IMG/VR virus record: IMGVR_UViG_3300032086_003078
Coordinates: 24,414-88,413 of that record
Direction: 5' to 3' (one strand)
Length of the DNA stretch: 64,000 bases
Source of the DNA: a virus
Positions 2,847-52,847 of this stretch are shown piece by piece. Each line of letters opens with the position of its first letter. Position 1 is the stretch's first letter. Both the position numbers and the translations under genes were made by a program. Under the pieces are notes generated by a model that ran no database searches, was not told the origin of the DNA, and saw only the letters and a list, made by a program, of their open reading frames with translations.

Positions 2847-2875
2847 ATTAGTGGGATAAAATAAGAAAGTCTAAA

Positions 2876-2883
2876 ACTATTTA
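2876..2883 (+). promoter_or_regulatory. Candidate late promoter element ACTATTTA
   Basis: ACTATTTA ends 19 bases before the gp13-like start. It is one of about eleven copies of ACTA-N-TTA that precede virion genes in this window, here directly behind a terminator, so a new transcript must start about here. Confidence 0.5.
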
Positions 2884-2902
2884 TACAAAGCGAGGAAGTT
2901 AG

Positions 2903-4153
2903 ATGCCAACTAATCTACAACCAGTTAGCACCACAAGTGCTGTTGTTCTGCCTTCGACAGGGACCCACTCCGATGTAGAGTCTGCTTTGTCTTATGGTGT
3001 GTATACCACAGATGCATTCATTAGTGGTGCAGTAGATCAAGTATCTTATACCTACAATAAGTTAGGTGGTAGAGTTCTTGATTTAGAAATAACACCAGAA
3101 ATAGTTTATAATGCATATGAAGAAGCGTGCTTAGAGTATTCTTACTTGGTAAACACACACCAAGCTAAGAATGTCCTTTCTGACATGCTAGGTAACACTA
3201 CAGGGTCTTTTGACCAGGACGGTGAGTTTACTGAATATGCTAATGGCACAGATGTAAAGCCAAATTTGAAATTTCCTCGTTTTCAGCTTGGGTATGCCAC
3301 CCATGTTGGGCGTGGGAGTAGCGTCCATGCCGGCATAGGTGCATCACAAACAGTTTATTCTGCTTCTTTTGTTCCTCGAAACGACGTTCAAGACTATGAT
3401 CTTCAGGCAATCATATATTCTGCCTCATTAGAAGCAGATTCACCATTCCAAGATGCCGTAGGCAGAAGTGCAATAACAATACAGAGAGTGTACTATCGGA
3501 CACCACAGACAATGTGGAGCTTTTTTGGAGGATATTCCATAGGGGCAGTTGGCAACCTGTCAACTTATGGGATGTATGCGGATGATAGTGCATTTCAGCT
3601 AGTACCAGCATGGCAAAATGTCCTACAGGCTTATGCTTTTGAAGAAGACATGAATGTCCGTGCATCACATTACTCTTTTAGGATCAATAATAATAAACTA
3701 AGAATTTTCCCAACCCCTGACGGACTAAATCCCGATAGATTTTGGGTAGACTTTAGAGTATCTGAAGACGCTTTCCAGGAAGAGTTTGATAGAAAATATG
3801 GTGCTGATGGTGTTAATAATATGAATACACTTCCATTTCCAAATGTACCATATAAAAATATCAATAGCATTGGCAAGCAGTGGATTAGAAGATTCGCTCT
3901 ATCTCTATCTAAAGAAACTCTGGGACAAGTTCGTTCAAAGTTGGCTAGTATACCAATACCTGGAAACGAGGTAACCCTAAACGGACCATCTTTAATATCA
4001 GAAGCAAAAGACGAGCAAAATGCTCTCAGGGATGAATTGAAGACTGTTCTTGATGAGATGGCTTATGGTGCCCTCATGGAAGGTGATGCACAATTGCAAA
4101 ACAACTTGTCTGAAGTAATCAAACATGTGCCAACTGGCATATACGTAGGATAA
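2903..4153 (+). CDS. Neck / head completion protein, T4 gp13-like
   Basis: A 416-residue protein. The C-terminal third carries the block typical of gp13-family neck proteins: a WIRRFALSLSKETLGQVRSK helix, then IPIPGNEVTLNGPSLISEA and a helical tail. T4 gp13 binds gp14 and the portal to close the filled head before tail joining. It is followed by gp14- and gp15-like genes in the T4 order 13-14-15. GAGGAAG precedes ATG 2903. It is longer than T4 gp13 (309 residues), with extra N-terminal sequence. Family call by motif and synteny. Confidence 0.75.
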   Translation: MPTNLQPVSTTSAVVLPSTGTHSDVESALSYGVYTTDAFISGAVDQVSYTYNKLGGRVLDLEITPEIVYNAYEEACLEYSYLVNTHQAKNVLSDMLGNTTGSFDQDGEFTEYANGTDVKPNLKFPRFQLGYATHVGRGSSVHAGIGASQTVYSASFVPRNDVQDYDLQAIIYSASLEADSPFQDAVGRSAITIQRVYYRTPQTMWSFFGGYSIGAVGNLSTYGMYADDSAFQLVPAWQNVLQAYAFEEDMNVRASHYSFRINNNKLRIFPTPDGLNPDRFWVDFRVSEDAFQEEFDRKYGADGVNNMNTLPFPNVPYKNINSIGKQWIRRFALSLSKETLGQVRSKLASIPIPGNEVTLNGPSLISEAKDEQNALRDELKTVLDEMAYGALMEGDAQLQNNLSEVIKHVPTGIYVG

Positions 4154-19138: not shown

Positions 19139-20359
19139 TTGTTATTTCAGACTCTTGACGATAAAACCGAGTGCGTCGGCATTTACGCCGATAGTCAGCT
19201 AATCTTCGACCCTGACGGCTTCCCACCAGAACTCACCCAAACTTGGAAATACGCTCCTTACCTGCGAGACCTCGATATTGAGTATATTTCGCTGTACCTT
19301 GAGGGCGGCAAGATTGGGGACGCAATCCCAGAATACCTAAAGGACGACTGGGAAGACGTATCTAAGAAGATTATGGCTTTCAGGCGCTCTTTGAGCATTT
19401 CCCAAGTGGATACCTACGAGAACTGCTTCTTTGACTTGGTGCCCGAAAGGTTCCTAGTTGAGTTTTGCGAGGTAAAAAATAAAATAACTGAATACGTCGC
19501 CAAGAACGTACAAAAGCCCGAAAGGTATGAGTTCTATAAGCACGTATCTATGATGCTAGAAGATATAAGCAACCAGAAGGTCAGCATAGACGCCCAGCGA
19601 GTATCATCATACCTACAAAGCCCAAAACTAAAGAACCATGCCAAGAACATTTTATCAGCGGCTCCATACGTTCGTTATAACCAGTTCGGCACGAAAACAG
19701 GCAGGCTCACAACCAAAAAGGGAAGTTTCCCAATCCTAACGATGAGCAAAGAGTTCCGTTCAGCGGTTAAGCCACAGAATGACTGCTTTGTAGAACTAGA
19801 TTTCAACGGAGCAGAAGTTCGCACTTTGCTCGGGCTTCTTGGCAAGGAGCAGCCAGAGGGCGACGTACACGATTTCCACCTTCAGGAAATCTTTACAAAA
19901 ATCAACACCCGTGACCAAGCCAAGATTGCCTTTTTCGCTTGGTTGTACGGCTCAAAAACAGCCGCCGACCAGCAAGAAATGACCAAACTAGCGGAGTTCT
20001 ACGAAAAGGACCGACTACTCAAAGAATATTGGGACGGAACAACAGTTAGAACGCCATTTAAAAAGCAAATACCCGACACAAGCGAACATCACGCCCTGAA
20101 CTACTTGGTCCAATCAACAGCCGCAGAACTCACTCTAAAGCAGGCTCTAAAGATAGAGTATCTTCTACGGAAACAGTCACAAGGCTCACACATCGCTTTC
20201 CTAATCCACGATGCTATTGTGATTGACATGAAAAACGAGGATGCGAACCTACTTAAATCAATGGTTGCACTTATGGGTTCCACGAATTTCGGCAAATTCA
20301 GGGTAAACATAAAAAGAGGTAAAACTCTCGGTTCTATGAAGGATATACGACTTGGATAA
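19139..20359 (+). CDS. Short family A DNA polymerase (PolA palm-fingers type)
   Basis: A 406-residue protein with the polymerase part of DNA polymerase I and no visible 3'-5' exonuclease. TGRLT lies near residue 182, motif A as DFNGAEVRTLLGLLG at about 221-235, motif B as RDQAKIAFFAWLYG at about 258-271 (keeps the R, K, F and YG positions), and motif C as HDAIVID near 356. Motif C normally reads HDE; here the Glu is Ala, though motif A Asp and motif C Asp remain. The start is TTG 19139 with GAGG upstream, eight bases after the tail cluster. A second, DnaE-type polymerase is at 31811, so this one may serve a special role such as repair or priming-end processing. Confidence 0.82.
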   Translation: MLFQTLDDKTECVGIYADSQLIFDPDGFPPELTQTWKYAPYLRDLDIEYISLYLEGGKIGDAIPEYLKDDWEDVSKKIMAFRRSLSISQVDTYENCFFDLVPERFLVEFCEVKNKITEYVAKNVQKPERYEFYKHVSMMLEDISNQKVSIDAQRVSSYLQSPKLKNHAKNILSAAPYVRYNQFGTKTGRLTTKKGSFPILTMSKEFRSAVKPQNDCFVELDFNGAEVRTLLGLLGKEQPEGDVHDFHLQEIFTKINTRDQAKIAFFAWLYGSKTAADQQEMTKLAEFYEKDRLLKEYWDGTTVRTPFKKQIPDTSEHHALNYLVQSTAAELTLKQALKIEYLLRKQSQGSHIAFLIHDAIVIDMKNEDANLLKSMVALMGSTNFGKFRVNIKRGKTLGSMKDIRLG

Positions 20360-21221
20360 AGTTATTGGTTTAGGGAAGCTCGGCTGTGCTATCGCAGAAG
20401 AACTAACAGCCTACCCAGAATACAGAATTTACAAGATTGACGGCGATATTGACGAGCGAGGAAGCTTGTCTATCGGCGAATATGGTGATATGGCCTCTTT
20501 TGAGGCAAATGTTGACAGTGATGAAGTGAGCGTTTATCTCCGATCTATCAAAAAAGGGGATGAAGTCCTGTTTGTCCTACAGGGCGGAGAACCAATCTCA
20601 GGTGCAACATTGAAAATATTGGAAACAATCAAGGATGTGAACCTAAACATCCTTTATATCTGTCCCGATCGACAAATGATTTCAGAGACCCAGAAGAGGG
20701 ATGATAAGATAGCTTTTATGATTTTGCAGGAATATGCTCGCTCAGGCAAGTTTCAGAACATGTTCTTGGTCGATAAAACAAAAGTCGAAGAATTAGCAGG
20801 ACACGTCCCAATAAATGAATATGAAAAGACAATATCCTACTTCATATCTTATGTTGTTGCCATGATAAACTTTTTCAAAAATACTAAACCAATCTTGGCA
20901 AACCCAATTAGTCCTCCTAATATTGCAAGACTTGTTGCTTATGGTGTTTCATCCCTAGATGAAGGAAATAGTGCGATCAACTTGCTCTTCCCTTTGGCGG
21001 AAACAAAAGACATTCATTTTTATTACGGCATACCAAAAAAAGAACTATCTGAAGATGCAACCCTAGTCAAGCGTATTAAAGAGCACGTCAAAAGTTATAA
21101 GACCGAAGACGTCTCCACCAGTTTTTCAGTCTATGAGACAACGCTTGAGTCTAAGATGGTTCTTTGTGTTGCCTACTCTTCTAAGATCCAAGATCTAGTG
21201 CTAGGTAAAAACACTCCTTGA
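20352..21221 (+). CDS. Divergent tubulin/FtsZ-like protein
   Basis: A 289-residue protein with the linear layout of the tubulin/FtsZ GTPase fold. A Gly-rich turn GLGKLG follows the first strand (residues 6-11). A tubulin-signature-like loop, LQGGEPISGATLKILE, is at 76-91 in place of GGGTGTG. KRDDKIAFMILQEY (115-128) and VDKTKVEEL (140-148) match the FtsZ segment after it, and ANPISPPNIARL (183-194) sits where the T7 loop would be. The G-box is degenerate, so GTP binding is uncertain. Start is TTG 20352, overlapping the polymerase stop. A Rossmann-like NAD protein is the main alternative. Confidence 0.5.
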   Translation: MDKVIGLGKLGCAIAEELTAYPEYRIYKIDGDIDERGSLSIGEYGDMASFEANVDSDEVSVYLRSIKKGDEVLFVLQGGEPISGATLKILETIKDVNLNILYICPDRQMISETQKRDDKIAFMILQEYARSGKFQNMFLVDKTKVEELAGHVPINEYEKTISYFISYVVAMINFFKNTKPILANPISPPNIARLVAYGVSSLDEGNSAINLLFPLAETKDIHFYYGIPKKELSEDATLVKRIKEHVKSYKTEDVSTSFSVYETTLESKMVLCVAYSSKIQDLVLGKNTP

Positions 21222-21265: not shown

Positions 21266-21706
21266 ATGGCGAATAAAAGAGGGGCTTTGCTAGCATCGTT
21301 CATAATGACCGATAGCGAAGAACAAATACAAGAAGAAGTTGAATATATTGTCAATAATATTGAGATTACTAACAATCTCATTTTTTTGCTAGAGGAAAAA
21401 GAGAATCCTCTTAAAAAAATTATTACATACAATGCAGTTGTCGAAAAAGGAAAGTCTTTTAATGAAAGGCTTTTCACAATGCGTATGCATCGCAAGAAGC
21501 AGACCAACACCCTCTACACAATCAACGCCCTCAATGCTGCTGTAGCTTCCCAGCACGAAGGCAAAACAGGAAAAGACCTAAAACTAGACTGGACCCAGTA
21601 TGAGAATTCCATTCTATTGACTGCTGGAAAAGAACTAAAAGTCCACTCAGTACAAGTCAGTAAAATCTTCAAAATTGAAGACGAACCAGTAGAAGACGAC
21701 CAATAA
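21266..21706 (+). CDS. Conserved phage hypothetical protein
   Basis: A 146-residue protein with an acidic N-terminus (DSEEQIQEEVEYIVNN), a strongly conserved-looking core (EKENPLKKIITYNAVVEKGKS, then RMHRKKQTNTLYTINALNAAV) and an acidic end (DEPVEDDQ). The basic, Thr/Tyr-rich core suggests nucleic acid or protein contact. I do not recognise a named family. It sits between the tubulin-like gene and the ssDNA-binding gene, in the replication block. Confidence 0.75.
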   Translation: MANKRGALLASFIMTDSEEQIQEEVEYIVNNIEITNNLIFLLEEKENPLKKIITYNAVVEKGKSFNERLFTMRMHRKKQTNTLYTINALNAAVASQHEGKTGKDLKLDWTQYENSILLTAGKELKVHSVQVSKIFKIEDEPVEDDQ

Positions 21707-21820: not shown

Positions 21821-22591
21821 ATGGGTATTGACTTAAACAAAATGCGGCAGAAGCACGCCGCCCTTACTAACCGAGGTGGAGATACCTCTGACAACTTTTG
21901 GAAGCCAGACGAAGGGACACATCAGATCCGCCTAGTCTGCCCTCCCAACGGTGACCCCTTCTTTGAAGCATATTATCACTACGGCATGGGATCTGAAGGA
22001 AAGACCACTGTTCTCAGCCCACGGACTAACGGTGATGCTGACCCAATCGCCGAGTGGGGGACCAAGCTCTGGAACGAGGGTACCGATGGCTCCAAGGAAG
22101 CAGCCAAGCGCTTCTGGCCTAAGATGCGAGTATTCGCTCCTGTCGTCGTCCGTGGAGAAGAGGACAAGGGTGTTCGCTGGTGGGGCTTTTCCCGCACCAC
22201 CTACCAAGCGCTCCTCGATGTAGTTCTTGACCCCGAGTACGGTGATATTACAGACCCAGAAAAGGGCACCGATATCCGTATTGATTACGGCAAGAAGCAG
22301 GGACAATCTTTCCCAACGACCGATGTCCGCCCAATGCGCCGAACCAGCACCTTGGCTGATTCCGAAGAGAATGTCAACACTCTTCTAGAGAGCATCAAGT
22401 CGGCTGACGATGTATTTGATGTTGCATCATATGAAGAATGCGAGAAGGTTCTCAATGAGACTCTTGGCGGTGCTGACACCACAAGCACTAATGAGACAAC
22501 TCGCTACGACAACACCGCAACCACGACTAACAACAGTGGTATGGAAGGTGTTAGCGACATCGAGTCAGCATTTGACGATCTACTGGCGTAG
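21821..22591 (+). CDS. Single-stranded DNA-binding protein, T4 gp32-like
   Basis: A 256-residue protein laid out like gp32. A basic N-terminus (LNKMRQKHAAL) would be the cooperativity LAST-like region. The OB-fold core carries many Trp/Tyr residues (FFEAYYHYGMG, RVFAPVVVRG, WWGFSRTTYQALLDVVLDP). A Ser/Thr-rich linker leads to an acidic tail ending in ESAFDDLLA, which recruits replication partners. The zinc-finger cysteines of T4 gp32 are not present in the core. It has its own promoter and precedes uvsX. It coats ssDNA in replication and recombination. Confidence 0.85.
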   Translation: MGIDLNKMRQKHAALTNRGGDTSDNFWKPDEGTHQIRLVCPPNGDPFFEAYYHYGMGSEGKTTVLSPRTNGDADPIAEWGTKLWNEGTDGSKEAAKRFWPKMRVFAPVVVRGEEDKGVRWWGFSRTTYQALLDVVLDPEYGDITDPEKGTDIRIDYGKKQGQSFPTTDVRPMRRTSTLADSEENVNTLLESIKSADDVFDVASYEECEKVLNETLGGADTTSTNETTRYDNTATTTNNSGMEGVSDIESAFDDLLA

Positions 22592-22652: not shown

Positions 22653-23723
22653 ATGACAAAGAAGTCTGCAAACAGTCTTGTAAGTGATCTACGCACAGAA
22701 CTAAACAAGGCAGCTAAAGAAAACATTGCGTATGATCTGCATGGGGACAACCCAACAGATGTAAAGACCTGGATCTCTACTGGATCAACTCTGCTTGATT
22801 ATATTATCTCTAACCGCCGAGACGGTGGTATTCCTGTCGGCAAACTCACCACGATTGCTGGCGAGTCTGCCAGCGGCAAGAGTCTCATCGTCACACAGAT
22901 TTTGGCGAACACACAAAAGATGGGAGGGGTTGCTGTATATATTGATACAGAGAACGCAGCCTCTCCAGACTTTATGGAGCAGTTGGGACTTGACACCAAG
23001 AACAGCTTCTTGTATGTTCAGCCTGGTACGGTTGAGGAAGTTTTTGAGACAATTGAGCGGCTGATTGGACGTATCCGTGAAAAAGCACCTGATCGCTTGG
23101 TTTGTATTGTGTGGGACAGCGTTGCCGGCACACCAGTCAAAGCGGAGGTTGAGGGCGACTATGACCCTAACAGTCGTATCGGTCTGACAGCCAAGGCACT
23201 AGCCAAAGGTATGCGGAAAGTCACAGAGACGCTCGGCAAGGAACAGATTGCCATGGTCTTTACTAACCAGTTGAAGACCAATATCGGTGTGATGTTCGGA
23301 GACAACCGAGTTGAGCCAGGCGGCAAGGCTCTGCCCTACCATGCTTCCAGCCGTATCTGGCTTACCCAGCACAAGGGCAAAGCTAACGGTCAGATCCTCA
23401 ACGAGAAGAAGCAGGTCATTGGTTTTCATACCAGCGCCAAAACAATGAAGTCTCGCTTCGGACCATCACCAAGGAGTTGTGAGTTTGATGTATTATTTGA
23501 CCTTGCTAACGACCGTGTTGGCGTTGATGATGAAGGTTCCTGGCTTAGTGCTATCGCTGGTACGCCTGGGTGTGTTCGCAGCGGTGCTTGGTATACTATC
23601 AACGTTGACGGCGAAGATAAGAAGTTCCAAGCTAAAGAGTTTTTGAACCTACTGGAAGATAAGAAATTCCGTGCAAGAGTTCTTGACATTCTAGAAGATG
23701 AGTATAGAATAGGGAAGAAGTAG
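22653..23723 (+). CDS. uvsX: UvsX/RecA-type recombinase
   Basis: A 356-residue RecA-fold ATPase, near T4 UvsX (391). Walker A is GESASGKS at about 70-77, followed by VAVYIDTENAASPDF and a Walker B strand LVCIVWDSVAG. A MVFTNQLKTNIG segment matches the L2/strand region of this family. It forms filaments on ssDNA for strand exchange and recombination-dependent replication, working with the gp32-like protein encoded just upstream. Confidence 0.92.
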   Translation: MTKKSANSLVSDLRTELNKAAKENIAYDLHGDNPTDVKTWISTGSTLLDYIISNRRDGGIPVGKLTTIAGESASGKSLIVTQILANTQKMGGVAVYIDTENAASPDFMEQLGLDTKNSFLYVQPGTVEEVFETIERLIGRIREKAPDRLVCIVWDSVAGTPVKAEVEGDYDPNSRIGLTAKALAKGMRKVTETLGKEQIAMVFTNQLKTNIGVMFGDNRVEPGGKALPYHASSRIWLTQHKGKANGQILNEKKQVIGFHTSAKTMKSRFGPSPRSCEFDVLFDLANDRVGVDDEGSWLSAIAGTPGCVRSGAWYTINVDGEDKKFQAKEFLNLLEDKKFRARVLDILEDEYRIGKK

Positions 23724-24163: not shown

Positions 24164-25116
24164 AGCGACTTTTGATTATTGACGGACAGAATATGTTTAT
24201 TCGAAACTATGTTATGTCCCCACAACTGGATATCAATGGAAATCCTATTGGAGGGCTAACTGGTTTTATGAGGTCCCTTCAAAAAGAGGTCCGTCGAGCA
24301 AAGCCTGATCGAGTTGTAGTCTGCTGGGAAGGTCCTGGCGGCTCTCAAAAACGACGGGAAAAAAACAAAAACTATAAACTTGGTCGTAAGGCTCCCAAGC
24401 TGAACCGTGAGTATGAATTTTCAACTCCAGAAGAGGAAAGAGAAAACAAATATGAGCAACTGCTGCGATTGACAGAATACCTAGAAAACCTGCCAATCCT
24501 TCAGATGTCCCTTGAGAATGTCGAAGCTGATGACATTATTGCATGGTTGTGTCACTGCAATGAGTACGCTGAATGGCAAAAAGTTATTGTATCTAACGAC
24601 CAAGATTTTCTTCAGTTGTGCGATGACAAGACCATCTTGTTGCGACCTGGCAAAAACGAACAAGTTCTCAATAAGAATAAAGTCTTGGAAGAATATGGTA
24701 TTCATCCTCGCAACTTTGCCTGGGCTCGTGCCATCGTAGGTGACAAGTCTGACAACCTTGCTGGCGTTAAGGGCTTGGGACTGAAGACGGTTTCTAAAAG
24801 ATTTCCTTTCCTTTCGGAAAATAAAGACTATGGTCTTGATGATATTCTGACGCACGCAAAAAATAATAATTCTAAAATCAAGGCTTATCAAAGCGTTGTA
24901 GACAATGAAGAAATTATTGCTTCAAATTACGAAATTATGCAGCTATATACCTCTACCATCTCGTCACAAGGAGTTCAAAAGCTCAAATATGCGGTTAAGA
25001 ATGACGGGGTCACTCTCAACCGTTCCGAAATTAGAAAAATGCTCCTAAAAGACGGAATTGGTACTCTAAACATAGATGAGCTTATGGTATTATTGAACTC
25101 TCATAGGAAAAAATGA
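24160..25116 (+). CDS. 5'-3' exonuclease / flap endonuclease, T4 RNase H-like
   Basis: A 318-residue PIN/FEN-fold nuclease, near T4 Rnh (305). Acidic metal ligands are visible in IIDGQNMF (D8), VEADDIIAW, SNDQDFLQL and GDKSDNLAGVKGLGLKT; the last includes the helix-hairpin-helix DNA grip. It removes RNA primers and flaps during lagging strand synthesis. ATGA overlap couples it to the deaminase gene, and a hairpin terminator covers its stop codon. Confidence 0.88.
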   Translation: MKRLLIIDGQNMFIRNYVMSPQLDINGNPIGGLTGFMRSLQKEVRRAKPDRVVVCWEGPGGSQKRREKNKNYKLGRKAPKLNREYEFSTPEEERENKYEQLLRLTEYLENLPILQMSLENVEADDIIAWLCHCNEYAEWQKVIVSNDQDFLQLCDDKTILLRPGKNEQVLNKNKVLEEYGIHPRNFAWARAIVGDKSDNLAGVKGLGLKTVSKRFPFLSENKDYGLDDILTHAKNNNSKIKAYQSVVDNEEIIASNYEIMQLYTSTISSQGVQKLKYAVKNDGVTLNRSEIRKMLLKDGIGTLNIDELMVLLNSHRKK

Positions 25117-31810: not shown

Positions 31811-34800
31811 ATGACTAACCGAATTGAAAGCAAAATCCCTTTTGTGGGATTACACGCCCACTCAGGGCTTTCTCCGTTTGACGGACTAGGAATGCCTGGC
31901 GAGCATATGGACTTCGCCTATGAAAACGGAATGAATGCCCACGCTCTCACAGACCACGGGCATATGAACGGACTGTCGTTTCAGGTCGAACATTTGAAGA
32001 AAATGCGAGCAGACGGCAAAGAGTTCCGAGCCTTGTATGGCTGTGAATCCTACTTCATCCGCTCACACAAGAAGTGGCGGCAGATGTACGAGGAGCACAA
32101 GGCTAATCAAAAGCGCCAAAAGAAAGAAGAGTTTGGCATGGTCATCGAGGACGAGGATCGAGGCAAGAAGCGTAATCCGCTCAACAACCGCCGCCACCTC
32201 GTGATGATCGCCCAAAATCAGACAGGTCTAAACAACTTGTTCCAACTGGTATCGGATAGCTATCAGCCTGAGAACTTTTACCGCTACCCTCGTATGGACT
32301 TTGAGATGCTGGATAAGTATAACGAGGGGCTAATCATCAGCAGCGCCTGTATGTCAGGTCCATTGTTCGAAGACTTTTGGAAGAATAGAGACAAGAGCCC
32401 TGACCACGTGCTTGCAGCGATGCGGGACACGATCGCCCAGTTCAAGGAGATCTTCGGAGACAGGTTTTACGGGGAAGTCCAGTGGAATGATATTAAGGAG
32501 CAGCACGAGGGTAACAACCTCATTATCCAAGCCTGCATGGAAATGGGTGTTGAGGTTATCAGCACGGCGGACAGCCACTACCCACGACCTGACTTGTGGA
32601 AAGACCGAGAGATGTATAAGCGCATCGGCTGGGGCGGCAAGATCCCAGAGTGGGCGGACCCTGATAGTCTTCTGCCAGCATCGGTTGACGAGGTGGGCTA
32701 CGAGTTGTACCCGAAGAATGGCGACCAAATGTGGGAGTCTTACAAAAAGTATTCGGGCAAGCACAACATCGAGTATGACGATACTTTTATCCGTGATAGT
32801 ATTGAGCGCACACATCACATCGCCTTTGATCGCTGTGAAGACTTCCTGCCCGATAGCACTGTCCGACTCCCAGAGTTTGTTGTGCCCGAGGGCAAGACAG
32901 CCATCCAGGCCTTGACTTCTGACGCTCTCAAGGGGATGAAAAGTAAGAATCTTACGAGCCCTGAGTATGTTGATCGCCTGAAATATGAACTCAATATTAT
33001 CAACGAGCGTGGCTTCGCTCAATACTTCTTGACGATGAAAGCCATCTCAGACAAAGCCCAAGAGGAAATGCTGGTCGGACTAGGACGAGGCTCAGCCGCT
33101 GGTTCACTCTTATCTTATGTGCTAGATATCACACAAGTGGACCCTATCAAATATCAGTTGCAGTTTGAGAGGTTCCTAACCAAGGGCGGCAGCGGCTACC
33201 CTGATATCGACTTTGACGTTGAAGAGCCAATGCTTTTGAAGGAGCAACTGGCAGAAGAGTGGGGACCGACTACAGTTGTACCGATCAGCAACTTCAACAC
33301 GCTCCAACTTCGATCGCTCATCAAGGACATCGGTAAGTTTTATGGTATTCCGTTCACCGAAGTCAACAAGGTGACTAGCGTGATGATGAGCGAAGCCACT
33401 CCAAAAGCCAAGGCAGCCAGGGGGCAAACTGCTGGCGTCTACACTCCAACATTTGACGAGGTAAAAGAATATAGTGAAACACTCCAAGACTTCTTTGACA
33501 AGTACCCAGAGGTTGCTACTCACGTTGATAACCTCTTCGGCAATATGCGGAGTATTTCTCGGCACGCTGGTGGGGTTGTGGTGGCAGAAAACCTTGACCG
33601 CCATATGCCCCTAATCAACTCTGGCGGTGTCATCCAAACGCCGTGGAGTGAAGGGCAAAACGTCAGGCACCTGGAGCCGCTCGGCTTTATTAAGTTTGAC
33701 CTGCTTGGCTTGTCAACTCTCCGTATGATTTCGGGAGCCATTCGTCACATCCTCAAGCGTCACCAAGGCATTGAGGAGCCAACCTTCGAGCAGGTGAGAG
33801 ATTATTATAATATTCACCTCCACCCAGACGTGATCGATTTTGATAATCAAGAAGTCTGGCGTGAGGTATTCCACAAAGGTAAGTGGGCTGGCATCTTCCA
33901 GATGACTAACGGCGGAGCCCAGCGGTTCTGCCAAGAAGCCCAGCCAACTTCACTTTTGGACTTCGCAGCAGTCACCGCTATTTTCCGCCCCGGACCACTT
34001 AGCGCCAAGGCTCACAGTCTGTATGTTGCGAACAAGTCTAACCCTAGCCAAGTACACTACGAGCACCCAATCATCAAAGAAGTGCTCGGAGATACATACG
34101 GCTTGCTGGTCTTCCAGGAGCAGTTGGCTATGCTCGCTCACAAGTTGGGCGACAACATCTCGCTGGATGAGGGCAACCTTCTCCGCAAAGTCTTGACGAA
34201 AAAGGGAACAGGCAAAGATAAAGTCAAAGACAAATTATATAAAAAGTTTGTCAAGGGCTGTAACAACCACGGACTAAGTGAAGATGTTGCCAAGAATCTC
34301 TGGTCCAAGATGGAGTTTTTCTCAGGCTACGGCTTTAACCTGTCTCACGCTGTCTCCTACGGTGCCGTGTCCTTCCAGTGCGCTTGGTTGAGCTACTACT
34401 ATCCAGTTGAATGGATGGCTGCCTTCCTCGATAAGGAGCCAGAAGACAAGAAAGCAGGAGCGATCAACACTGCCAAGTCCTTTGGTTTTGAGATTGTCCC
34501 GCCAAGCATTAACAAGTCAGGACGAGTCTGGGAAATTGCTGAAGATGGCAAGACTCTGATTCAACCTCTTGCTGGTATCAAAGGTCTTGGCGATAGTGCT
34601 ATCGATCAAATCGTTACTAACCGACCCTTCAGCAGTATTGAAGAGTTCTTATTCAACGAGAACATCACATACTCCAAGCTAAATAAGAAGGCGCTAGATG
34701 TTCTGGTTAGGAGCAAAGCCCTTGATGAATTGATGGATGATAGGTTCACGGGACTAAAGCATTTCTGGTCTGCCGTCGCAGTTGACCGCCCACGCAAGGA

Positions 34801-35221
34801 AAAGAACCTAGTGGAAAATATTGAGTTGTATGCGCCAGAGGGAGACTTCTCCGAAGAAGAGAAGTTGGAACACTTCGCTTCGCTCACAGGCATTTTCCCA
34901 ATCCACGAGATTATGCCGCAGGAAATCCAAGACAACCTAATGAACCGAGGTTGCCCTCCTATCAGCGAGTATGACCCCGACCTACAACTGGTCTGGTTCA
35001 TTCCAAGGGAAGTAAAAGTAAAGAAGACCAAGAACGGCAAGGAATACTGGATTATCCACACCACCGACAGCAATGCCCACGATGCTCGCATCCGTTGTTG
35101 GGGAGTGAAAGAAAACGATAGGATCTCCCTTAACAAAGTGTATGTTGCTAACTTAGAATATAACGAGAAGTGGGGGTTCAGCACCCGCTCGATCAAAAAG
35201 TCATTTAGGAGGCTCACATGA
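31811..35221 (+). CDS. dnaE: DNA polymerase III alpha subunit (DnaE-type, family C)
   Basis: A 1136-residue replicase, full length for bacterial DnaE. The PHP domain has FVGLHAHSG (H15, H17) and LTDHGH (near 47-51), so its metal site looks intact. The palm carries GLGRGSAAGS near 423, PDIDFD near 463 (two catalytic Asp) and FIKFDLLGL near 627 (third Asp). QEQLAMLAHKLG and LLRKVLTKKG follow, and an OB-fold is near the C-terminus. It should be the main fork polymerase in place of T4 gp43. The ATGA stop overlap links it to the next gene. Confidence 0.95.
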   Translation: MTNRIESKIPFVGLHAHSGLSPFDGLGMPGEHMDFAYENGMNAHALTDHGHMNGLSFQVEHLKKMRADGKEFRALYGCESYFIRSHKKWRQMYEEHKANQKRQKKEEFGMVIEDEDRGKKRNPLNNRRHLVMIAQNQTGLNNLFQLVSDSYQPENFYRYPRMDFEMLDKYNEGLIISSACMSGPLFEDFWKNRDKSPDHVLAAMRDTIAQFKEIFGDRFYGEVQWNDIKEQHEGNNLIIQACMEMGVEVISTADSHYPRPDLWKDREMYKRIGWGGKIPEWADPDSLLPASVDEVGYELYPKNGDQMWESYKKYSGKHNIEYDDTFIRDSIERTHHIAFDRCEDFLPDSTVRLPEFVVPEGKTAIQALTSDALKGMKSKNLTSPEYVDRLKYELNIINERGFAQYFLTMKAISDKAQEEMLVGLGRGSAAGSLLSYVLDITQVDPIKYQLQFERFLTKGGSGYPDIDFDVEEPMLLKEQLAEEWGPTTVVPISNFNTLQLRSLIKDIGKFYGIPFTEVNKVTSVMMSEATPKAKAARGQTAGVYTPTFDEVKEYSETLQDFFDKYPEVATHVDNLFGNMRSISRHAGGVVVAENLDRHMPLINSGGVIQTPWSEGQNVRHLEPLGFIKFDLLGLSTLRMISGAIRHILKRHQGIEEPTFEQVRDYYNIHLHPDVIDFDNQEVWREVFHKGKWAGIFQMTNGGAQRFCQEAQPTSLLDFAAVTAIFRPGPLSAKAHSLYVANKSNPSQVHYEHPIIKEVLGDTYGLLVFQEQLAMLAHKLGDNISLDEGNLLRKVLTKKGTGKDKVKDKLYKKFVKGCNNHGLSEDVAKNLWSKMEFFSGYGFNLSHAVSYGAVSFQCAWLSYYYPVEWMAAFLDKEPEDKKAGAINTAKSFGFEIVPPSINKSGRVWEIAEDGKTLIQPLAGIKGLGDSAIDQIVTNRPFSSIEEFLFNENITYSKLNKKALDVLVRSKALDELMDDRFTGLKHFWSAVAVDRPRKEKNLVENIELYAPEGDFSEEEKLEHFASLTGIFPIHEIMPQEIQDNLMNRGCPPISEYDPDLQLVWFIPREVKVKKTKNGKEYWIIHTTDSNAHDARIRCWGVKENDRISLNKVYVANLEYNEKWGFSTRSIKKSFRRLT

Positions 35222-48198: not shown

Positions 48199-49553
48199 TG
48201 AATTTAAAACCTCATCAAGTTGATTTAATTATCAATAGTGGACCAGTGCGGGATGAGTTTACCCAGAAGGTCAAGGAACTAGATCGCCGCTTGAAGATGA
48301 ACGGGATGGACTACAAGCAGTGGGACACCCTTACAGACCATCAGCACGAGATCTTTACAGATAATCTGTTCCTTGACGGCGAGTGTGCTGCTAGTCCAGA
48401 GAATTATGTCCAAGGCGCAGTGTCTAGCTGCGGCTGCCCCGACGTAGTGGAAGACCTACACCACCACTCCCCAGTCTTGATGAGGGAAATAGAAAAACAA
48501 CAGGAAATGGCTCCTGATATGACTGTGAAGATCAGCGAGAGCCTGAACTTTTTGAACGAATTTATTGACACACAAGTCGATAAAATTAGACTGACTGAAA
48601 GTAAGACCCAACGAGCCTTTGATCTGTATGAGCAAAAGGTTTATGGTGCCTGTGCCCAGACAGATATTCTAGGACCCTGGTCGATTGCTAAGGCTGGTGC
48701 TTCTCCAGATGAGACTGGGCCAGATATCCAGATTCAAATACCAGGACTAGACCCAGCCTTTGTGGAAGTAAAGCTTAACCTAAAGGCCGGCATGGGCGAG
48801 GGTTCTGCTAATTACTCCCCAGAACAAGGGAAGTTTAATATTGTTGTCCCTCGGGACAAACCACCAATGGAGCCAGAGTTTGCTGAGTTTGTACTTCAGG
48901 AACTGTACAGCAACGAGCAGAACATTAAAGAGTTCGCCCTAGCAATCAGAGACTGGCGTCGTAAAGCAAGCTACAAGTGGGACTCCACACGAGGTGGCGA
49001 TCCTAGTTTGTTCGCTTTTCCTTTTAGTACCACTTACGAAGCTTATGCCAACGCAGTCAAGGCAGGGTTGTACCGTAAAGCCTCCGAGTGGCCTACGGCT
49101 GGTGGCGGTGTGATGCTTCCTGACTTCTTTATTCACAAGCTTTATGCCCGAAAGGATACTTTCTATATCCAAGTGGGGCGCAAGGGGCTTTATTATTTGG
49201 CAGAAAACCCGCTGAATCTGCCAGTGCCGCAGTTCCCATCTAAGGCTGCTCTTATCTATCGCCCTAAACCATCTGGCTCTAAGAAACTGCCGCCAACACC
49301 AGAGCAAGCAGCACGGGGAGAAAAAGGAGATATTAATTACGGATGGGAGAGCCAAGACCCACGCCCTGAAGGAGAGCGTGATGATCGAAACTATTCCCCT
49401 TATAACGGAACGTTTATGATTCAGTCAAAGCTCCCCACAGGTGCCAACCTACCAAACTCGCCATACACATTAGATGATCCAGCGAGCATTGAGGTATTGT
49501 TGGCAGCACTAAACGTAGAGACAGAACAACCCGAAGAAAGTGAGGGCTTGTGA
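48198..49553 (+). CDS. Protein with PD-(D/E)XK-like motif, unknown role
   Basis: A 451-residue protein starting at the TAATG overlap. The N-terminal 140 residues are helical with Cys/His (SSCGCPDVVEDLHHH). Residues 171-195 contain GPDIQIQ (D176) and AFVEVKLN (E190, K192), the spacing of a PD-(D/E)XK nuclease. The C-terminal part has LFAFPFSTTYEAYANAVKAG and VGRKGLYYLAENPLNLP. It overlaps the Mom-like gene by four bases (GTGA). A nuclease or a large DNA-modification partner is possible; neither is proven. Confidence 0.55.
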   Translation: MNLKPHQVDLIINSGPVRDEFTQKVKELDRRLKMNGMDYKQWDTLTDHQHEIFTDNLFLDGECAASPENYVQGAVSSCGCPDVVEDLHHHSPVLMREIEKQQEMAPDMTVKISESLNFLNEFIDTQVDKIRLTESKTQRAFDLYEQKVYGACAQTDILGPWSIAKAGASPDETGPDIQIQIPGLDPAFVEVKLNLKAGMGEGSANYSPEQGKFNIVVPRDKPPMEPEFAEFVLQELYSNEQNIKEFALAIRDWRRKASYKWDSTRGGDPSLFAFPFSTTYEAYANAVKAGLYRKASEWPTAGGGVMLPDFFIHKLYARKDTFYIQVGRKGLYYLAENPLNLPVPQFPSKAALIYRPKPSGSKKLPPTPEQAARGEKGDINYGWESQDPRPEGERDDRNYSPYNGTFMIQSKLPTGANLPNSPYTLDDPASIEVLLAALNVETEQPEESEGL

Positions 49554-50470
49554 GAGCCGATCCATTTGAACGCTTCAAAGATCTAAAAGAAAATCACTGC
49601 TGGCAATACGAAGTAAGACTTCGCAACAGTAAGAAAGACCTACGAGAACTAGGCAAGGACCAGAAGTGGGCTGAAGACCTACGGACTGATGACTTTGACT
49701 TTGCTTATGTTGATAAGGCAGCCAAAGCACAATGTGCTGAAATCAAAGCATTTATCGAACGCCACGAGTTTCTAGGCATTCTACCTAACCGACCAACTCA
49801 CCGCTTCACTGCTCGGCTTAAGAACAGCGGAGTGCTAGCAGGTGTGGTTGTTATGGCGACACCCAACTCATTCAGTTTTTTACTGGGACGAGAAAACAGG
49901 GACATTATTAAGTTGGTATCAAGAGGAGCATCAATCAGTTGGGCTCCCAAGAACCTAGGGTCATGGCTGGTGTCCCGTGCTTGTAAGTGGATGGTCCAAA
50001 ATACAGAGTTCAGGTGCTTCGAAGCCTATAGCGATCCACTGGCTAAAGAGTTGGGAACAATCTATCAGGCACTGAACTGGACCTACCTTGGTCAAACTTC
50101 GGGCACAATAAAAATGTATAGGGACCCAAACGCCCTAGAGAAGGGCTGGTTTAGCGACCGAGAATTCCGCAAGAAATCTAAGTATCGTCGTTATGCTGAA
50201 GCAGCGGGCATCCCCTACGAGGAATGGAAAAAACACCTAGGTAAGTACACTCCTAAATGGGATGAAATGCCTTTTGGGTGGAAAGAGAAGGTCAAAGAAC
50301 AAGAGAAGCTTTACCGAGAGAGTTGTGAGTGCCGAGTTGTGCCCTCAAAACACAAATACTGCTATATTTTAGGCAGATCAAAAAAAGAAACTAAACACTT
50401 GAGAAATTTGTTTATACAATATAATCCTAATCGGGCAAATCTGCCCTATCCTAAAGAAAGAGGAGAATGA
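49550..50470 (+). CDS. GNAT/Mom-like protein, possible DNA base modification enzyme
   Basis: A 306-residue protein starting at GTG 49550. Residues 85-190 have the order of Mom-type acyltransferase folds: TARLKNSGVLAGVVVMATPNSF, LVSRGAS, GSWLVSRACKWM, FEAYSDP, then GTIYQALNWTYLGQTSG, which is close to the YQAxNFxYLG end of Mu Mom-like proteins. The C-terminus is basic and Trp/Tyr/Lys-rich with a Cys pair (ESCECRVV), suitable for DNA contact. In Mu, Mom alters adenine to block restriction. Here substrate is unknown. Confidence 0.55.
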   Translation: MRADPFERFKDLKENHCWQYEVRLRNSKKDLRELGKDQKWAEDLRTDDFDFAYVDKAAKAQCAEIKAFIERHEFLGILPNRPTHRFTARLKNSGVLAGVVVMATPNSFSFLLGRENRDIIKLVSRGASISWAPKNLGSWLVSRACKWMVQNTEFRCFEAYSDPLAKELGTIYQALNWTYLGQTSGTIKMYRDPNALEKGWFSDREFRKKSKYRRYAEAAGIPYEEWKKHLGKYTPKWDEMPFGWKEKVKEQEKLYRESCECRVVPSKHKYCYILGRSKKETKHLRNLFIQYNPNRANLPYPKERGE

Positions 50471-51260: not shown

Positions 51261-52847
51261 ATGACCAAAGACAATATCTTATTCGGAGATGACATCCGAC
51301 AAAGGCTAATCTGCGGAGCAAATAAGCTCGCTGATGCCGTCGCTTCAACGCTTGGACCAAGGGGGCAAAATGTAATCCTCTACAAGCGAGGAGCAAACCC
51401 AGTCATCACTAAAGACGGGGTAAGTGTTGCTCGTGTTGTAGAACTGGATAATGACTATGAACAAGCCGCTGTTGAGGTTCTCCGTCAGGCTGCTCTGGAA
51501 ACAGAAAAGACTAGCGGGGACGGAACCACTACCAGCACTGTATTGGCTAGGGCTATTCTAGTAGCAGCCAATAAGCATATTGCTGCTGGTGCTTCATCCA
51601 TTGACGTCAAGCGAGGCATTGACCTTGCGGTTGATGCAATCTGTGAGAAGATCACAGAGATGTCCCAGCCAGTCTCAAGCGAAGAAGAGATTCGACATGT
51701 TGCTACAGTGTCTGCGAATGGAGACGAGTCCATCGGCGCTCTTATCGCTTCAGCCGTTGATGCTGCTGGAAAAGACGGAGCCATCACAATTGAAGAAAGT
51801 CGCTCTTTGGAAACATCTCTAGATGTAACAGAAGGGTTTCAGTTTGATGGAGGCTTTGTTTCTCAACAGTTTATTACAGACGAGAGACGAGGAGTGGTTG
51901 ACTATAGAGACTGTCTAATCTTTGTTACAGACGAATCGCTTGACAATGTAGATGAGATGTTGCCAATTCTAGAGGTGGTAGCCAGAGACGGACGACCTCT
52001 TGTCATCGTCGCCGAACAAATAGAAGGGCAGCTTTTGGCTGCATTGATTATGAATCGCATGAGAAACAATATGAAAATCTCTGCAATCAAGGCTCCACGA
52101 TATGGCGAAGAGAGAAGGAATATCCTCAAGGATCTAGCTCTTGTTACGGGAGCAACGCTTATCAGCAAGGATTCGGGCATCAAATTAAACAACGTCAAAC
52201 TAGAACACCTGGGTATGGCTAGCAGAGTCGAGTGTAGCAAGTATAACACCACAATTGCTGATGGGAATACAAACTATGAAGAGCTTGAGAAGCACCTGGA
52301 GTCTCTTAGGTCACAATTGAAAGAAACTGATAGCCTTCAAGAAGCTGAACGTATTCAAGAACGAATTACCAGGCTGTCATCAGGAGTTGCTGTTATCCGT
52401 ATCGGCGGTGCTACAGAGATTGAGGTCACCGAAAAGAAACATCGTGTAGAGGACGCCCTGGAAGCAGTCAAGTCAGCGCAAGAGGAGGGGATTGTCTCTG
52501 GCGGCGGCACCGCTCTTTTGAAAGCAACGAAGAATCTTGAGCTTAGCCCACAAAACGAAGATCAGGTTCGAGGAGTTCAGGCTTTGATAGAATCTTGTTA
52601 CTCGCCAATAACTCAAATCTTATCTAATGCAGACATATCTTCTGACATTGTAATAAATTCCTTAAGTTATGACAATCACGACAAGAATACAGGCTTTAAT
52701 GTTCGGACAGAAAAGTTCGAAAACCTAGTCGAAACAGGCGTCATCGACCCTGCGAAGACTGTTAAGTGTGCGTTGCGTAATGCAGCCTCAGCGGCTGGGA
52801 CGCTTCTCACAACAAATTGTGCTGTTCTCAAGGAAGGTGGTGAATAA
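51261..52847 (+). CDS. groEL: Chaperonin GroEL (60 kDa)
   Basis: A 528-residue chaperonin, near full length (bacterial about 548). The ATP site is visible in LGPRGQNVIL, TKDGVSVARVVEL and TSGDGTTTSTVLA; the DGTTT and the second Asp region (QEEGIVSGGGTALL) are kept. The apical domain (residues about 190-370) has the conserved EGFQFDGGFVSQQFIT and LVIVAEQIEGQ. It lacks the C-terminal GGM repeat. With the phage GroES-like protein (28851) it could form a phage-encoded folding chamber for capsid or tail proteins. Confidence 0.95.
   Translation: MTKDNILFGDDIRQRLICGANKLADAVASTLGPRGQNVILYKRGANPVITKDGVSVARVVELDNDYEQAAVEVLRQAALETEKTSGDGTTTSTVLARAILVAANKHIAAGASSIDVKRGIDLAVDAICEKITEMSQPVSSEEEIRHVATVSANGDESIGALIASAVDAAGKDGAITIEESRSLETSLDVTEGFQFDGGFVSQQFITDERRGVVDYRDCLIFVTDESLDNVDEMLPILEVVARDGRPLVIVAEQIEGQLLAALIMNRMRNNMKISAIKAPRYGEERRNILKDLALVTGATLISKDSGIKLNNVKLEHLGMASRVECSKYNTTIADGNTNYEELEKHLESLRSQLKETDSLQEAERIQERITRLSSGVAVIRIGGATEIEVTEKKHRVEDALEAVKSAQEEGIVSGGGTALLKATKNLELSPQNEDQVRGVQALIESCYSPITQILSNADISSDIVINSLSYDNHDKNTGFNVRTEKFENLVETGVIDPAKTVKCALRNAASAAGTLLTTNCAVLKEGGE

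Follow-up and report, generated by a model that had tools for sequence, protein, structure and literature searches.

In published surveys, phage-encoded tubulins are a hallmark of the Chimalliviridae, the nucleus-forming jumbo phages, with few examples elsewhere (PMC11835377, PMC11724907, PMC13282480). The described proteins that bear on the present locus are PhuZ of these jumbo phages (gp39 of phiKZ), the TubZ/RepX proteins of Bacillus plasmids, with gp138-like proteins in Bacillus phage G, and bacterial FtsZ. A polymerase-linked tubulin in T4-like phages was not found in the literature searched, outside of which lay preprints and many subscription papers. Here we describe a protein with a predicted tubulin fold, T2, that appears as a standard neighbor of the DNA polymerase and single-stranded DNA-binding protein (SSB) genes in hundreds of contigs from uncultured, T4-like phages. 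We take these viruses to be marine, judging by the set of metagenomes and by what has been published on phages of this kind.

The window that was analyzed is a stretch of 64,000 nucleotides (positions 24,414 to 88,413) from an 88.4-kb virus record, IMGVR_UViG_3300032086_003078. The replication operon around T2 contains the following features, in window positions:

19139–20359, + strand: family-A DNA polymerase of 406 aa, without an exonuclease domain, adjoining T2 upstream (Pfam DNA_pol_A, E 9e-16)
20338–20354, + strand: start signals of T2, a Shine-Dalgarno-like AAGGA followed by TTG, which overlap the polymerase gene at its end (translational coupling, read from the sequence)
20352–21221, + strand: T2, tubulin/FtsZ-fold protein of 289 aa, TTG start (AlphaFold2, Foldseek, TubZ profile match)
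21266–21706, + strand: protein of 146 aa without a family match, between T2 and the SSB, in the T1-bearing clade only
21821–22591, + strand: gp32-like SSB, downstream of T2 (phrog_1192, E 3e-17)
22653–23723, + strand: UvsX/RecA-type recombinase (Pfam RecA, E 9e-43; phrog_97, E 1e-76)

The 289-residue reading frame is present where the original prediction placed it, and the proposed translational coupling to the polymerase holds up: AAGGA lies 8 nt before the TTG, the start overlaps the polymerase stop by 8 nt, and the same junction recurs in relatives. Pairwise dN values of 0.08–0.20, against a dS of 1.9 (near-saturated) or saturated, imply purifying selection on the protein. Judged by the recurring junction and the low dN, T2 is a real gene.

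The gene order is highly conserved. Of 80 loci examined, a family-A polymerase is found upstream of T2 at all 77 that are informative, usually within 0–600 bp, and a gp32-like SSB downstream at all 76 that are informative, usually followed by UvsX, an exonuclease and DnaB. The predicted placement of T2 between polymerase and SSB thus stands on the upstream side, where the polymerase is the direct neighbor. On the downstream side, the SSB gene usually follows T2 immediately in the wider family, whereas in the clade to which the window belongs the 146-aa frame separates the two. This additional gene is present at every locus of the T1-bearing clade with enough sequence and is absent from the wider family.

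The genome itself is T4-like, with Portal_T4, Gp23 and T4-type terminase genes, and related contigs reach 148–190 kb. The description of the setting as T4-like is therefore correct for the portal, capsid and terminase, but not for the polymerase, which belongs to family A rather than being a T4 gp43. A bacterial-type DNA polymerase III alpha subunit with PHP, NTPase and finger domains is also encoded (31811–35221), so the role of main replicase may not belong to the small, exonuclease-less PolA. Elsewhere in the window is a gene for a Mom-like DNA modification protein (49550–50470; phrog_1384, E 1e-18). Near the left end of the record (locus L030, G000:C1:1-5000), several unrelated reading frames start with near-identical peptides, MKITKSQLRQIIKEE or MKKLLTEWRKFLKE, that resemble a shared targeting tag, and positions 2855–3658 of this locus encode a putative membrane site-2-protease-like protein with a HELGHYLAARAMGV motif.

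An AlphaFold2 model of T2 made with 21 diverse relatives aligned has a pLDDT of 91.7 and a pTM of 0.90, with an H7 helix at residues 154–176 and a C-terminal domain. A poor earlier model, for which five near-identical sequences had been aligned, reached a pLDDT of 50.9 and was set aside. In a Foldseek search of the PDB, all of the matches listed were FtsZ or TubZ, with E-values of about 1e-12 to 1e-11, a probability of 1.00, more than 300 alignment columns and, for nearly all of the top matches, TM-scores to the query of 0.64–0.72. The alignment spans the whole chain and both domains. Structure prediction and fold search had been proposed as the check on this protein, with a Rossmann fold lacking the tubulin C-terminal domain as the outcome that would speak against a tubulin. 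Such a fold did not appear, since the C-terminal domain is predicted and lies within the Foldseek matches. That T2 is an ordinary Rossmann protein of the dehydrogenase or TrkA type, whose GLGxxG motif mimics FtsZ, was suggested by TrkA_N or NAD-binding matches of single members, all weak and under the Pfam cut-off. This candidate was rejected because the high-confidence model aligns to FtsZ and TubZ over more than 300 columns in both domains, and because the profile match to TubZ described below survives without the GLGxxG region. Refuted in silico, it is now barely credible.

The sequence evidence comes from comparing profiles. An alignment of 81 T2 sequences, less than 90% identical to each other, was compared using hhalign with an alignment of TubZ proteins (T1, the second tubulin described below, plasmid TubZ and phage G gp138). 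The match has a probability of 97.2 and an E-value of 3.1e-11 over 193 columns, and it persists without the N-terminal 40 residues (E 8.7e-8), without T1 (E 3.6e-9), and with T2 sequences of the window clade alone against the TubZ profile (E 2.8e-6). The controls gave nothing comparable: the reversed TubZ alignment gave an E-value of 0.3, and 30 column shuffles scored at most 24, against 86 for the real match. It is the breadth of the T2 family that makes the match significant; a narrow comparison of T2 and T1 profiles gave an E-value of 0.0012 over 56 columns, which is suggestive only. The match and the failure of the controls make T2 a true member of the tubulin superfamily. By predicted structure and profile together, both fold and membership of the tubulin/FtsZ superfamily are well supported, and the original description of a divergent tubulin/FtsZ-like protein is borne out. 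Among the families compared by sequence, T2 is nearest to TubZ, with FtsZ and PhuZ each represented by one sequence, a weak test: E. coli FtsZ gave a non-significant E-value of 0.21, and phiKZ PhuZ one of 0.07 over 27 columns, covering the N-terminal motif only.

These comparisons also bear on the idea that T2 serves host takeover by assembling together with bacterial FtsZ and blocking it. The top PDB fold matches of T2 are indeed FtsZ proteins, and tubulin homologs with a dead GTPase could poison FtsZ polymers. Nevertheless, the profile fits TubZ and not E. coli FtsZ, within the limits of that single-sequence test, and the T2 gene belongs to the replication operon and is not placed with the variable host-takeover genes, all of which makes this role very improbable.

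Relatives of T2 are encoded at no fewer than 582 loci in IMG/VR and diverge down to 31% identity. No credible match was found by single-sequence searches of Pfam, PHROGs, NCBIfam and PDB sequences or by profile searches of the PDB, and no PhuZ match was found in PHROGs. Relatives were not found among the cultured phages searched, nor in GTDB genomes, where the search used a single degenerate pattern and was weak. By these searches, T2 founds an unrecognized family, absent from Pfam, PHROGs, NCBIfam and cultured phages, which has gone unnoticed because sequence searches miss the tubulin fold.

Asparagines in the T6 loop and the H7 helix contact guanine in tubulin and FtsZ. The corresponding pocket positions in T2 were mapped through the alignment with TubZ, and residues were counted separately in 55 members of the wider family and in the 26 members of the window clade, which is monophyletic (support 100/99). 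In the window, they are:

20367–20390, + strand: motif GLGKLGCA of the loop designated T1 in tubulins, residues 6–13; Asn13 in 33/55 (wider family) and 0/26 (clade)
20583–20603, + strand: signature loop GGEPISG, residues 78–84, equivalent to GGGTGTG of FtsZ; Gly80 in 52/55 and 0/26
20775–20777, + strand: Lys142, where T6 would contact guanine; Asn142 in 53/55 and 0/26
20835–20837, + strand: Ser162, where H7 would contact guanine; Asn162 in 54/55 and 5/26

Asp30 follows the same trend, being present in 54/55 members of the wider family and 12/26 of the clade. The signature loop of the window protein reads GGEPISG, as had been reported; it is a partial and degenerate form of the GGGTGTG/S signature, and the guanine-contacting Asn is missing in both T6 and H7. 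The degeneracy is confined to the window branch, the consensus in the wider family being a Gly-rich GxGxISG. A check of the GTP-binding residues, also proposed at the outset, thus gave a divided answer: they are kept in most of the wider family, while Asn13, Gly80, Asn142 and mostly Asn162 are gone in the window clade. Since the TubZ outgroup has both the T6 and the H7 Asn, the difference is most simply explained as a loss of guanine-contacting residues in the window clade under purifying selection, and the T2 of the window is probably no longer a GTPase. The catalytic Asp of T7 has a clear counterpart in no T2 protein, Glu190 (32/55 of the wider family) being one position off. GTP hydrolysis and treadmilling may therefore be absent from the wider family as well. 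The T3-loop region is very short.

The record that contains the window encodes a second tubulin:

G000:C1:12316-13452 (L031 1317-2453), about 11 kb to the left of window base 1 and outside the window: T1, TubZ-like tubulin of 378 aa

T1 exceeds the Pfam cut-offs for Tubulin (37.3 vs. 33 bits) and TubZ-like_C (30.3 vs. 26 bits), has TubZ (4ei7, E 8.6e-12) as its best solved relative and carries the T7 motif FDATD. It is, by these matches, a canonical TubZ-like tubulin. Its gene lies between a transmembrane/coiled-coil gene and a gene for a secreted protein, just upstream of the terminase. T1 and T2 are found together in ten records (G000, G002, G008–G011, G013, G014, G016 and G023), including every sufficiently long record of the window clade, and in long records they are about 31 kb apart on one strand. 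T1 is present in both sub-clades; from gene positions and contig extent, the partners missing in other records of the clade are judged to fall beyond the contig ends. The protein is 92–94% identical between phages whose T2 proteins are only 50–65% identical.

In the wider family, T1 was not found in five long genomes (148–184 kb). In the region upstream of the terminase in three of these genomes and in G031, the flanking genes are in place and T1 was not found, and T1 therefore looks like a clade-specific insertion. A single evolutionary event probably accounts for its presence or absence in one clade, so the co-occurrence of the two tubulins does not amount to a set of independent observations. 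The locus L162 (in G031) encodes the sister of the window clade (support 99/95), on a long branch, and it too has lost Asn142. T1 was not found in its 58.6-kb fragment, which includes the region where it would lie, so the loss of the pocket may precede T1. The idea that the pocket was lost in response to the arrival of T1 is weakened accordingly.

What, then, might T2 do? Our preferred reading, held tentatively and at a little below even confidence, is that T2 is a replisome-linked tubulin paralog, a pseudo-GTPase adaptor or scaffold in the window clade and nucleotide-binding in the wider family. Ancestrally, the protein would have been a guanine-nucleotide binder that either assembled on replicating phage DNA or positioned it. 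In the window clade, where canonical GTP binding would be poor or gone, T2 could be a polymer-competent or capping adaptor, or a hetero-subunit, that connects the complex of polymerase and SSB with a scaffold. T1 filaments are a candidate for this scaffold, in which case T1 would be the partner driven by GTP. Against the adaptor reading, the pocket decay of L162 without T1 means that the decay may not have been a response to T1 at all, and since T1 lies beside the terminase, about 31 kb from the T2 operon, it may instead serve packaging or capsid delivery. A bolder version, which we consider doubtful, is a two-tubulin cytoskeleton in which the pocket-less T2 became an obligate adaptor, cap or hetero-subunit for the later-acquired T1, giving a phage filament that joins replication sites and packaging in non-jumbo, T4-like marine phages.

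Alternatively, T2 could still be a self-assembling, nucleotide-dependent cytomotive filament similar to PhuZ or TubZ, with an altered pocket, that centers or segregates phage replication sites. The predicted fold is complete in both domains, and the wider family keeps the base-contacting Asn and the Gly loop. The window also contains a gene for a GroEL-type chaperonin (51261–52847; phrog_5725, E 8e-145). Chaperonins are reported to co-occur with tubulins in jumbo phages (PMC7824862), an analogy that weakly favors a working tubulin system. With four pocket residues wholly or mostly gone in the window clade, a very short T3 loop and an unmatched T7 Asp, such a filament is rather unlikely here.

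The near-invariant linkage to PolA and gp32, in a family that diverges so far, could also point to a non-polymerizing replication accessory, its tubulin fold having been turned into a protein–protein module for loading or regulating PolA or SSB. This would fit the conservation pattern, which peaks in LQEYARSG, YPxY and SVYxT and not in the nucleotide loops. However, linkage of genes does not by itself demonstrate a complex, and the guanine-contacting Asn residues present in >95% of the wider family suggest nucleotide-controlled assembly, leaving an accessory of this kind unlikely.

If T2, in whichever form, organizes replication, then positioning of phage DNA inside cells would be far more common than thought. 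The window clade, with its decayed pocket and new TubZ, amounts to a natural experiment on how a tubulin may lose the use of GTP and gain partners, and its pocket provides named residues for testing.

Compared with described systems, T2 has its best PDB fold matches in FtsZ (TM about 0.7, E about 1e-12), but the two are only 13–15% identical, and T2 differs in lacking the C-terminal tail, in its degenerate nucleotide loops and in its viral operon. PhuZ is likewise a phage-encoded protein of tubulin fold, although its profile similarity to T2 is limited to the N-terminal motif in the single-sequence comparison, and its operon context is different. Unlike the PhuZ-bearing Chimalliviridae, the T2 phages are of the T4-like kind and have genomes of roughly 150–190 kb, and their T4-type portal, capsid and terminase argue against a nucleus-forming type. 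The closest viral fold in BFVD is A0A6J5RW92, labeled “FtsZ”, from an uncultured Caudovirales phage (TM 0.77); at 452 aa and 15% identity it belongs to a different family, and no close relative of T2 was found in that search. No TubR gene was found beside T2 or T1, whose neighbors are PolA and SSB for the former and the transmembrane/coiled-coil and secreted-protein genes for the latter. T2 thus resides in a replication operon, in contrast to the TubR-TubZ partition locus of TubZ, and it is a shorter protein with no long C-terminal extension, a GGEPISG loop in place of GGGTGTG and no match for the T7 Asp. Even so, T2 shares with TubZ/RepX the full predicted fold and sequence-profile homology (E 3e-11), while T1 is directly homologous to it.
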